Shown: piece by piece, positions 7,044 through 15,843 of the stretch
How positions within the stretch are numbered: the stretch's first letter is position 1
Layout of the letters: every line of letters begins with the position of its first letter
DNA from: Gymnodinialimonas sp. 202GB13-11
Lineage (GTDB): Bacteria > Pseudomonadota > Alphaproteobacteria > Rhodobacterales > Rhodobacteraceae
DNA: 64,000 nucleotides
Direction of reading: 5' to 3'
Assembly (NCBI RefSeq): GCF_040932485.1
Contig: NZ_JBFRBH010000001.1
Span: 2,964,212 to 3,028,211, forward strand
Notes under the pieces: generated by a model
What the model was told of the DNA's origin: nothing
What the model saw: the letters and a program-made list of their open reading frames with translations, nothing else
Database searches by the model: none
Program-made: the position numbers and the translations under genes

Positions 7044-10000
7044 TTACTCCGCCGCATCCCCTTCGGGCGCTTCGGCTTCGGCCTCGAACACCTCGGGCGC
7101 TGCAAGGGCGGCTGCTTCCGCTGCCGCGGCCTGCTGCTCCTCGATCACCACCATATCGCGCGACTTGGCGATGCGCTCCACCTTCTGGGTCGCGCCACCG
7201 GTCCCCGCCGGGATCAGACGGCCCACGATGACGTTCTCTTTCAGGCCAACAAGCTTGTCCTTCTTGCCCTGAACCGAAGCCTCCGTAAGGACGCGTGTGG
7301 TCTCTTGGAACGACGCTGCCGAGATGAACGACCGGGTCTGGAGCGAGGCCTTGGTGATCCCCAGAAGGATCGGCTCACCCTGTGCCGGACGACGACCATC
7401 TGCGATGGCCTTCTCGTTGGCCGCATCGAACTCGGCCTTATCGACATGCTCACCTTTCAGAAGCGTGGTTTCACCAGAATCCTGGATCTCCCACTTCTGC
7501 AGCATTTGCCGAACGATAACCTCGATGTGCTTGTCGTTAATCTTCACACCCTGAAGGCGATAAACGTCCTGCACCTCGTCGATCATGTAGTCAGCCAGCG
7601 CTTCCACACCCATGACCGCAAGAATGTCATGCGGGGCCGGGTTGCCGTCCATGATGTATTCACCCTTCTGGATGAAATCACCTTCGGCGACTGGGATGTG
7701 CTTGCCCTTGGGCACCATGTATTCCACCGGCTCCAAGCTCTCGTCCGCGGGCACGATGCCGATGCGGCGCTTGTTCTTGAAGTCGCGGCCGAATTTCACG
7801 TAGCCGTCGATCTCGGCGATGATGGCGTGGTCCTTCGGACGACGCGCCTCGAAGAGTTCGGCCACACGCGGCAAACCACCGGTAATGTCCTTCGTCTTCG
7901 CACCCTCACGCGGGATACGCGCGATCACGTCACCGGCTTCGACCGTCTGGCCATCTTCGATGGACAGGATGGCGTCGACCGACATCGTGTAGGTGACCGG
8001 GTTGCCCTGATCGTTGCGCATCGGCTCACCGTCTTCACCCGCGATGATGATCTCGGGCTTCAGCTCATTGCCTTTGGGGGCCGTGCGCCAATCCGAGACG
8101 ATCTTCTGGGTCATGCCGGTGGCATCGTCGGTCTCATCCCTGAGCGAGATGCCCACGGTCAGATCAACGAACTTCGCGTTACCGGCGGCCTCGGCGATGA
8201 TCGGCAAGGTATACGGGTCCCATTCGAACAGGCGGTCGCCGCGGGCGATATCAGCCCCGTCTTCCACCAGCACGTTGGTGCCGTATCCCAGCTTGAACGA
8301 GGCGCGTTCCGCACCCTGATCATCCACGATGGCCAGCTGCATGTTGCGCCCCATGACAACGGTCTGGCCGTCACGGTTCTTCAGCAGGTTGGCATTGCGG
8401 AACTCGATCTTGCCTTCGACATTGGCTTCCTGGAACGACTGCTGGCCACCCTGGGCAACACCGCCGATGTGGAACGTCCGCATCGTCAGCTGTGTGCCCG
8501 GCTCACCAATCGACTGCGCCGCGATGATGCCCACGGCTTCGCCTGTGTTCACTTTCGTGCCGCGCGCGAGGTCACGACCATAGCAGGTCGCGCAAACACC
8601 CTCTTCCGCTTCACATGTCAGCGGGGAGCGCATCTGCATCGTGGTCACACCAGCCGCTTCCACGGCGTCAGCCTTACGTTCGTCGATCAGCTCGCCCTTG
8701 GCGACGATCACCTCATCGGTGCCCGGCACAAGCACGTCTTCCCCGGCCGTCCGGCCAAGGATGCGCTCTGCCAGCGAGGCCACGACTTCGCCGTCATTGA
8801 CGGCAGCCTCGGCTTTGATCGTCTTCTCGGTGCCACAATCGTCCATGCGCACGATGCAATCCTGCGCCACGTCCACAAGACGACGGGTCAGGTAGCCCGA
8901 GTTCGCCGTCTTCAAGGCCGTATCCGACAGACCCTTCCGGGCACCGTGGGTTGAGTTGAAGTACTCAAGAACGGTCAGACCTTCCTTGAAGTTCGAGATG
9001 ATCGGCGTCTCGATGATTTCGCCGTTCGGCTTGGCCATCAGGCCGCGCATGCCGCCCAACTGCTTCATCTGCGTGACCGAGCCACGCGCACCAGAGTGGG
9101 CCATCATGTAGACCGAGTTCGGCTCCATCTCGGACCCATCGTCAGCGCGCTTGGCGGCCGAGATCGTGCCCATCATGGCGTCGGTGACCTTGTCGTTGGC
9201 TTTCGACCAGGCATCGATGACCTTGTTGTACTTCTCACCCTGGGTGATCAATCCATCCATGTACTGCTGTTCGAATTCCTTCACCTGACCACGGGTATCC
9301 TCAACGAGGTGCCACTTGTCATCAGGAATGACCATGTCGTCCTTGCCGAACGAAATGCCCGCCTTGAAGGCCTCTTTGAAGCCCATCGACATGATCTGGT
9401 CGCAGAAGATAACCGACTCTTTCTGACCGCAATAACGGTAGACGGTGTCGATGACCTGCTGCACTTCCTTCTTCCGCAGAAGACGGTTCACCAGATCGAA
9501 CGGCGCTTTCGCGTTCAGCGGCAGAAGCGCACCCAGCAACACGCGGCCCGGCGTGGTTTCGAACCGCGTCAGAACCTCGTTGCCTTCCTCATCAATCTGA
9601 GGAAGGCGCGCGTGGATCTTGGCGTGCAGATGCACCTCGCCCGCGTCGAGCGCATGGCGAACTTCATCCACGTCCGAGAAGATCATGCCTTCCCCGACCA
9701 TGCCCTCACGCTGAAGCGTGACGTAATAGAGACCCAGGATCATATCCTGCGACGGAACGATGATCGGCGCGCCGTTTGCTGGCGACAGAACGTTGTTCGT
9801 CGACATCATCAACACGCGGGCTTCAAGCTGTGCTTCCAGCGAAAGCGGCACGTGCACGGCCATCTGGTCACCGTCGAAGTCGGCGTTAAACGCGGAACAG
9901 ACCAGCGGGTGAAGCTGGATCGCCTTGCCTTCGATCAAAACCGGCTCAAACGCCTGAATGCCAAGACGGTGCAACGTGGGCGCGCGGTTCAGAAGAACCG

Positions 10001-11267
10001 GATGCTCACGGATCACCTCGTCGAGGATATCCCACACTTCGGGACGCTCTTTTTCGACCAGCTTCTTGGCCTGCTTCACGGTCGAAGACAGACCCTTCGC
10101 CTCAAGCCGCGAGTAGATGAACGGCTTGAACAGCTCCAACGCCATCTTCTTCGGCAAGCCACATTGATGCAGCTTTAGCTCCGGACCGGTCACAATCACC
10201 GAACGACCCGAGAAGTCGACGCGCTTACCCAGAAGGTTCTGGCGGAAGCGACCCTGCTTACCCTTCAGCATGTCCGACAGCGATTTCAGCGGGCGCTTGT
10301 TGGCACCCGTGATCACGCGGCCACGACGGCCGTTGTCGAACAGAGCGTCGACGGATTCCTGCAACATCCGCTTCTCGTTACGGATGATGATGTCCGGCGC
10401 GCGCAGTTCAATCAGGCGCTTCAGGCGGTTGTTCCGGTTGATCACGCGGCGATAGAGGTCGTTGAGGTCCGACGTTGCGAACCGGCCACCATCCAGCGGC
10501 ACCAGCGGGCGCAGCTCTGGCGGGATAACCGGAACAACGGTCAGAACCATCCACTCGGGCCGGTTGCCGGACTCGAGGAACGATTCAACGATCTTCAGAC
10601 GCTTGATGATCTTCTTCGGCTTCAGCTCACCCGTCGCTTCCTTGAGGTCTTCACGCAGGTTCTGCGCTTCGGACTCGAGGTCAATCTGGGAAAGCATCTC
10701 GCGGATGGCTTCCGCACCGATGTTCGCCTGGAACGCGTCGGCGCCGTAAGCATCCTGCGCGTCCATGAACTCCTCTTCCGACATCAACTGACCGTATTGC
10801 AGGTCGGTGAGGCCAGGTTCGATCACCACGTAGTTTTCGAAGTAGAGGATCCGCTCAAGATCGCGCAGCGTCATATCCAGCATCAGGCCGATGCGGGACG
10901 GCAGCGACTTGAGGAACCAGATGTGCGCAACGGGTGCGGCCAGTTCGATGTGGCCCATCCGCTCACGGCGGACTTTCTGCAGCGTGACTTCCACACCGCA
11001 TTTCTCGCAGACAACGCCGCGATACTTCATCCGCTTATACTTGCCGCACAGGCATTCGTAATCTTTGATCGGCCCGAAAATACGGGCACAGAACAGGCCG
11101 TCACGCTCGGGCTTGAACGTACGGTAGTTGATCGTTTCGGGCTTTTTGATTTCCCCATACGACCACGACAGGATGCGCTCGGGCGAAGCGAGCGAGACCT
11201 TGATCTCATCAAACGCCTTGGGCGGCGTCAGAGGGTTGAACGGGTTGTTGGTCAGTTCCTGGTTCAT
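7044..11267 (-). CDS. rpoC: RNA polymerase subunit beta prime
   Basis: This encodes the 1407-aa beta' subunit, which holds the catalytic Mg2+ and the clamp. [12 protein letters not shown] is the active-site aspartate loop. The zinc-ribbon [20 protein letters not shown] lies near the N-terminus, and a second cysteine group [19 protein letters not shown] lies toward the C-terminal third. The start is [17 protein letters not shown]. Unlike the usual rpoB-rpoC arrangement, a 90-aa ORF lies between the two genes; rpoC starts 14 bp after it. The length is normal for alphaproteobacteria. Confidence 0.98.
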
Positions 11268-11281
11268 GGGAAGACCTTTCC

Positions 11282-11550
11282 TTAATTAGCGCATTCGAAG
11301 CGCACAAAATCGGCTCCACCGGCGACGGTGATGTTCTCTTCATAGACGGCGAGTTCACCGCCGTTGCAGATCGCAGTGGCAATCGCGAAATTATCGCGAT
11401 TACCGAAGTGCTGAGGGATCACGCCTGACACGACGCCGTCGATCCATTCCATCCGAATGCTCGAATAGAACGTGCTGAGTTCGCTCCACAAGAAACCTCC
11501 TGCGGTGCAAATCGCCCCGAACAAAAGCGTTAGTGCCACACGCAGCCACC

Positions 11551-11554
<4 letters not shown>
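11282..11554 (-). CDS. Small unknown membrane/secreted protein wedged between rpoB and rpoC
   Basis: This 90-aa ORF fills the whole rpoB-rpoC gap. Its GTG start overlaps the rpoB stop (GTGA, 11551-11554) and its stop is 14 bp before rpoC, so it is almost surely co-translated with both. Residues 1-25 form one hydrophobic segment with a basic N-terminus ([20 protein letters not shown]), suggesting an anchor or signal peptide. Two cysteines (CNGG and a C-terminal FECAN) could pair outside the cytoplasm. I do not recognise the family. Its presence in an RNA polymerase operon is odd. Confidence 0.65.
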
Positions 11555-15708
<4,154 letters not shown>

Positions 15709-15843
15709 GGTTGTCGCGCACCTTTCTGTCTCGCGCGGCACCCACGCCGCCGGGGCTCGGCGGGCTGCTCGCAAGAAAATAGACGTAACGGATCAATCTG
15801 TTTGCCGTCCCACCGACAAAGCCCGACCCTCTTGTCACCGTCT

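Follow-up and report, generated by a model that had tools for sequence, protein, structure and literature searches.

The neighbouring position of rpoB and rpoC is generally assumed to be invariable, and rpoB is among the standard marker genes. Accessory-gene hotspots, the surface-polysaccharide loci among them, exchange their contents by homologous recombination through conserved flanking genes; integrons carry promoterless gene cassettes; translationally coupled genes overlap at ATGA or GTGA junctions; and lineage-specific small membrane or secreted orphan proteins are a known class. The locus considered here, an open reading frame (ORF) for a 90-residue protein between rpoB and rpoC in a 64,000-nucleotide stretch of Gymnodinialimonas sp. 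202GB13-11 DNA (the window), can be set beside each of these, and is probably an accessory-gene cassette in an exchangeable rpoB-rpoC slot.

The slot resembles a hotspot in its conserved flanks, in cargo that differs between close relatives and is partly surface-related, and in phylogenetic conflict that is confined to cargo and edges. It is unlike a hotspot in that its cassettes are mostly single genes inside the rpoB-rpoC operon, and in that the flanking essential genes supply the start codon and often the stop codon. All 12 of the cassettes counted overlap the rpoB stop by 4 nt, and 8 overlap the rpoC start in this way too, as coupled genes do, but the middle gene of the slot is optional and exchangeable. 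Slot ORFs of 90-125 aa, with their hydrophobic N-terminus, lack of a family match and narrow distribution, are like orphan proteins, except that they lie at one chromosomal slot in every carrier found. Promoterless cassettes, in tandem in one genome (G032; G-numbers designate genomes compared with that of the window, which is G000), recall integrons; the edges of the slot, however, are the end of rpoB and the start of rpoC, and it is partial copies of the rpoC start that lie between the G032 cassettes. No integrase or transposase gene lies beside the cargo in the window slot, where there is no room for an integrase because the 273-bp ORF almost fills the 283-bp gap. A literature search with narrow phrases yielded no earlier description of an rpoB-rpoC slot, a weak hint that it is previously undescribed. 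If the slot is what it appears to be, essential operons can host fast-changing cargo with coupling kept, the ends of marker genes are themselves open to recombination, and the capture or birth of orphan genes can be followed at this site in a natural series of cases.

Position and occupants of the rpoB-rpoC junction

The gene for ribosomal protein L7/L12, rpoB, the 90-aa ORF and rpoC are all on the minus strand of the window. The features referred to below are:

7044..11267, minus strand: rpoC (Pfam)
11208..11267, minus strand: first 60 nt of rpoC, grouping with G009 against the sister genomes; putative right edge of the exchanged tract (sites +17, +59)
11275..11281, minus strand: GGAAAGG, ribosome-binding-like sequence of rpoC; motif enriched in long gaps
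11282..11554, minus strand: 90-aa cassette ORF, GTG start inside the rpoB stop, TAA stop (ORF list)
11554..11566, minus strand: last rpoB codons, grouping with G009 against the sister genomes; putative left edge of the exchanged tract (sites -13, -7, -4)
11551..15774, minus strand: rpoB (Pfam and NCBIfam TIGR02013, 1926.6 bits; start codon assigned solely from the longest ORF)

The original prediction, of an ORF between rpoB and rpoC whose GTG start overlaps the rpoB stop by 4 bases and which ends 14 bases before rpoC, agrees with the ORF coordinates and with the Pfam and NCBIfam assignments of the flanks. The last codon of rpoB and its stop provide the overlapping start codon, GTG (11554-11552) and TGA (11553-11551) together forming the 4-nt GTGA. 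The 14 nt between the ORF's TAA and the rpoC ATG read AAGGAAAGG; with the stop codon included, the distance is 17 nt. The Rfam cis-regulatory family Rhodo-rpoB (RF03074; 15739-15829, minus strand; 51.3 bits, gathering threshold 33.6) has a match at the 5' end of rpoB, an element that may act on the same operon.

Among 13 same-genus genomes, two (G000 and G009) have this ORF in the slot, one has a different 101-aa ORF, one a 304-aa ORF, and nine a gap of 72-111 bp. A protein search finds the ORF in 2 of 61 genomes, its own included, with 83% identity in G009; a profile search of 394 family genomes, sampled at about one per genus, finds the ORF family in three, namely G000, G220 and, as a distant member (pairwise E 7e-6), G224. 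Each of the four known copies is located at the rpoB-rpoC junction. The idea that the same insertion might recur in other genera holds for the slots of G220 and G224, and not for the 391 of 394 sampled family genomes in which the profile does not find it. The further claim that selection has kept the ORF within the essential operon is not upheld, in view of these 391 genomes and of its absence from 11 of the 13 same-genus genomes, sister genomes having a 72-bp gap or a different gene in its place; the ORF seems, moreover, to have been transferred by recombination (see below).

Ends of rpoB were found in at least 163 of 189 family genomes, among the matches listed, and the junction was read at 113 loci, the 13 of the same genus and 100 others. 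Eighty of the 100 were taken in list order, by similarity to the rpoB of the window (G216, at a contig end, and the first place of G187 were skipped), and 20 were hand-picked before any gap was known, G129 being chosen for its long frame. L024 (contig end) and L053 (in G032, where the gap exceeds the piece, and was later found to be 1740 bp) gave no gap, leaving 111 measured gaps (13 + 98). Short gaps, of 45-122 bp, number 92, and long ones, of 175-959 bp, number 19; these counts refer to related genomes and not to independent events. (G386, contig C12 of G187, G257, G243 and G032 come from targeted searches and are outside the 111.) The slot is empty, at 45-122 bp, in most sampled family genomes, and is otherwise occupied by one of several genes.

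Bacterial lipoproteins have a lipobox Cys following a hydrophobic segment. A lipoprotein-like family occupies the slot in four genera, with G011 and G099 coming from the survey and G187 and G257 from profile searching of the 394 genomes; three of the four members have a lipobox (LAAGC or LAGC), and that of G099 has F in place of C. (G187 has rpoB ends on two contigs, C12 and C56, one with a 49-bp gap and one with the lipoprotein-like cassette, perhaps signifying a mixed assembly.) Other small, secreted-looking ORFs are in the slots of G175, G148 and G108. Hexapeptide acyltransferases, 32% identical to each other, are in those of G017 (45.1 bits) and G030 (24.9 bits, below the cut-off of 27). 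A 300-aa family that has no Pfam match is represented in G006 (survey), G032 and G243; its sole member found outside the slot, in G325, has neighbours that were read by eye as a GDP-mannose dehydratase and a membrane acyltransferase. The slot of G133 contains a glycosyltransferase-like ORF (by eye; no Pfam match), and that of G386 a sulfotransferase (PF13469, E 5.8e-20), which came from a DNA-pattern search with nine matches, one of them (G061) not at rpoC. Coiled-coil ORFs are found in G101, G152 and also G032; those of G101 (L073) and G032 (L129), two genera, are 83% identical over 63 aa, and have no overlapping start. A few long gaps contain no clear gene.

Thus one cargo family can be found at one site in different genera (with the exception of G325), and close relatives, as the 13 same-genus genomes show, have different cargo or none at that site, as is expected of a slot whose contents are exchanged. 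In G032 (L129), three cassettes lie in tandem between rpoB and rpoC, and two incomplete copies of the initial 15-17 rpoC codons stand between them, recording serial insertion at the start of rpoC. The 299-bp gap of G203 (L021) has no long ORF and contains a 22-nt, 91% copy of the rpoC start, which is possibly the scar of a lost cassette.

Proposed translational coupling at the two ends of the slot

A start codon overlapping the rpoB TGA is present in 14 long gaps, and in 12 of the 14 the ORF from that start fills the gap (the 12 are not 12 independent events). In 7 of the 19 long gaps no start-coupled ORF does so. Short gaps also have the -4 start (36 of 92), and none of these gives a gap-filling ORF reaching 60 codons. 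At the other end, the TGA of the rpoC ATGA is in the frame of the ORF in 11 of the 12 start-coupled cassettes, as against 27 of 92 short gaps (Fisher p 4.8e-5); counted by family, with families grouped by hand, the agreement is 6 of 7 (p 0.007). Eight of the 12 end exactly on this TGA; the window ORF does not. In 9 of the 12 the start has a GGAGG-type sequence ahead of it, and 76 of the 92 short gaps have one in the same position; the window genome has none before its GTG. GGAAAGG occurs no more than 30 nt from rpoC in 7 of the 19 genomes with a long gap and in none of the 92 with a short one (Fisher p 1.5e-6).

This arrangement suggests that termination-reinitiation at the rpoB stop would bring ribosomes onto the cassette. 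Translation of rpoC would start from a ribosome-binding site of its own, with reinitiation at ATGA as a further route in most start-coupled cassettes. Passage of ribosomes by reinitiation from rpoB through the cassette to rpoC would allow an insert to be tolerated and leave the essential operon unbroken. In this way the slot would provide an incoming frame with a promoter and a start, and often with a stop. The rpoB-rpoC junction of this family might even be thought of as a "start-stop trap" for the capture, exchange and perhaps birth of genes, a speculation that we consider somewhat unlikely to be right. The acidic tail of rpoB would encode the ribosome-binding-like sequence and often the -4 start (at the short-gap frequencies given above), and the rpoC ATGA would supply the stop; DNA entering in frame would at once be transcribed and translated with rpoC still coupled, making an essential operon a standing site of gene capture.

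Vertical descent or exchange

A tree of gyrB and parE (G007 omitted) makes G009 the sister of G010, whose slot is 72 bp, and groups G000 with G004 (72 bp) and G006 (the 304-aa cassette), both with support 1.0; the closest sampled relatives of both carriers are without the 90-aa ORF. Between the carriers, dS is 0.317 for the ORF vs 0.819 for gyrB and 0.757 for parE. This is not decisive by itself because the adjoining pieces of rpoB (0.387) and rpoC (0.556) are near the value of the ORF, and low dS may partly be a local property.

Individual sites are more informative. With G004 and G010 as the sisters, 160 sites are informative, of which 130 agree with the species tree, 15 unite the carriers and 15 do neither. 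Five of the 15 carrier-grouping sites are consecutive around the cassette (rpoB -13, -7 and -4; rpoC +17 and +59), an unbroken run that is equalled in 14 of 20000 shuffles; from rpoC +81 on and beyond rpoB -298, sites mostly follow the species tree. (Replacing G004 by G006 places the left edge between -28 and -19; replacing it by G008 leaves the right edge less clear, further carrier-grouping rpoC sites at +116, +122, +212 and +290 then being mixed with species-tree sites.) The cassette and the very ends of rpoB and rpoC group the two carriers against the species tree. Exchange by way of the conserved rpoB and rpoC ends would produce such a run, and the site patterns indicate that roughly 20-30 nt of rpoB and 60-80 nt of rpoC would have moved together with the cassette. 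The argument that cargo and edges differ in history from flanks and species is one of moderate strength, drawn from four genomes and five sites. On this evidence, homologous recombination would transfer cassettes from one species to another, and the conserved rpoB and rpoC ends would serve as its arms.

The principal alternative is a small envelope gene, ancestral at this junction in the family, that would have descended vertically with very rapid evolution and many losses, the small slot ORFs being its diverged descendants. The nine small start-coupled ORFs of the survey do share an N-terminal segment with a 17-residue hydropathy of 1.39-2.74 (G148 and G099 are lowest, and moderate) and a Cys near the C-terminus, GGAAAGG precedes rpoC at seven of these nine loci vs none of the 92 short gaps, and the lipoprotein-like family spans its four genera; the slot ORFs of G187 and G257 have N-terminal values of 2.04 and 1.58. 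(The first G032 ORF, of 107 aa, is start-coupled yet not hydrophobic, at 0.56, and the coiled-coil ORFs are not hydrophobic.) Against common ancestry, profile comparison of two small families gives only a C-terminal match of 10-11 columns (probability 1.9%, E 0.026; then 0.3%, E 0.19), and different enzymes occupy the same slot. Moreover, GGAAAGG is also found before rpoC after the G386 sulfotransferase and after a partial rpoC start in G032, and sister genomes differ in cargo where the two carriers share a short local tract. Vertical descent is accordingly judged improbable, though with a minor share of credence, and exchange of cassettes at a common slot is the reading that is followed below.

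The encoded protein

The hydrophobic N-terminal segment of the original prediction is confirmed: the best 17-residue Kyte-Doolittle mean is 2.05, from residue 6. An AlphaFold model made with four sequences (mean pLDDT 80.6) predicts a helix (residues 2-31) followed by a ββαββ domain (strands 34-38 and 41-47, helix 55-62, strands 68-77 and 81-88). Cys63 is common to all four aligned family members and Cys88 to three of the four (the G220 ORF has an out-of-frame tail); the window ORF has no lipobox. By the positive-inside rule, the N-terminus of the predicted helix would be inside. The protein may be anchored in the inner membrane by this single helix, with its small ββαββ domain in the periplasm, perhaps closed by a Cys63-Cys88 disulphide.

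Database searches do not place the protein. There is no Pfam family at E 0.001, no PHROG family below E 0.15, no PADLOC match, one non-significant NCBIfam match, and no clear match in a PDB fold search. The NCBIfam match is to the DarA cyclic di-AMP receptor (NF058593), which is rejected at 15.1 bits and E 0.022 against a curated cut-off of 140 bits. A PDB profile search lists 26 sequences, mostly plant leucine-rich repeat receptors, with a best whole-sequence E of 3.9e-11; in 25 of the 26 no single stretch passes, one part of ~20-30 residues matching many repeats weakly. The ORF has one SGxIPxxFGN-like stretch and no tandem repeats, and a leucine-rich repeat relationship is also rejected. No plasmid match was found, nor any in viral contigs (two-pattern scan), and with the PHROG search likewise negative, plasmid or phage origin is without support.

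Several slot enzymes are transferases of acyl or sulphate groups or look like glycan enzymes. The predicted anchor, together with the lipoprotein-like proteins, the acyltransferases, the sulfotransferase and the single occurrence of the 300-aa family in a glycan locus, suggests that slot cargo might vary the cell envelope or its glycans and be made in step with growth, from an operon that is strong and growth-linked. An envelope role for the window protein and other slot cargo is the likeliest of the functions considered but a tentative proposal, for which we would put the chances a little short of even.

Placement and translational overlap with rpoB might instead suggest a functional partner or regulator of RNA polymerase, co-translated with β and β' to set its stoichiometry. 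This is very improbable: only 3 of 394 sampled family genomes carry the ORF, other genomes fill the slot with unrelated enzymes, no polymerase-associated family is among the Pfam or NCBIfam matches, and the predicted N-terminal membrane helix, if correct, argues against polymerase contact. The expectation that ORF stoichiometry would be matched to that of the polymerase is plausible for the mRNA.

Returning to the cassette as an accessory gene, it is a coding gene under purifying selection. The dN/dS ratio, which had been proposed as a check, is 0.267 between G000 and G009 (bootstrap 0.13-0.52) and 0.107 between G009 and G220, of another genus (dS is saturated for G000-G220). Of the changes that separate the window ORF from its homologues, 16 of 33 are synonymous in the comparison with G009 (24% expected, p 0.0016) and 40 of 83 in that with G220 (23% expected, p 5e-7; 75 codons, before the frame break of the G220 copy), and both length differences between the G000 and G009 ORFs are whole codons. 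The rule that absence from close relatives would mark a chance frame fails here because absence goes together with dN/dS well below 1. The GTGA overlap alone is weak evidence for a gene because rpoB often ends GAG-TGA, as the -4 starts of short gaps attest; it is the synonymous excess that weighs most. That the ORF is a chance open frame in a spacer is scarcely credible: a GTG within GAG-TGA does arise without selection, an open frame of this length is expected at this G+C in a few per cent of cases (a rough estimate) and the G220 copy is frame-disrupted near its end, but the two synonymous excesses, the whole-codon length differences and a fairly confident predicted domain are against it.

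In the G220 homologue (L133, 4202-4498, plus strand), the C-terminal pattern of the family carries on in another frame, so that this copy is either disrupted or wrongly sequenced.
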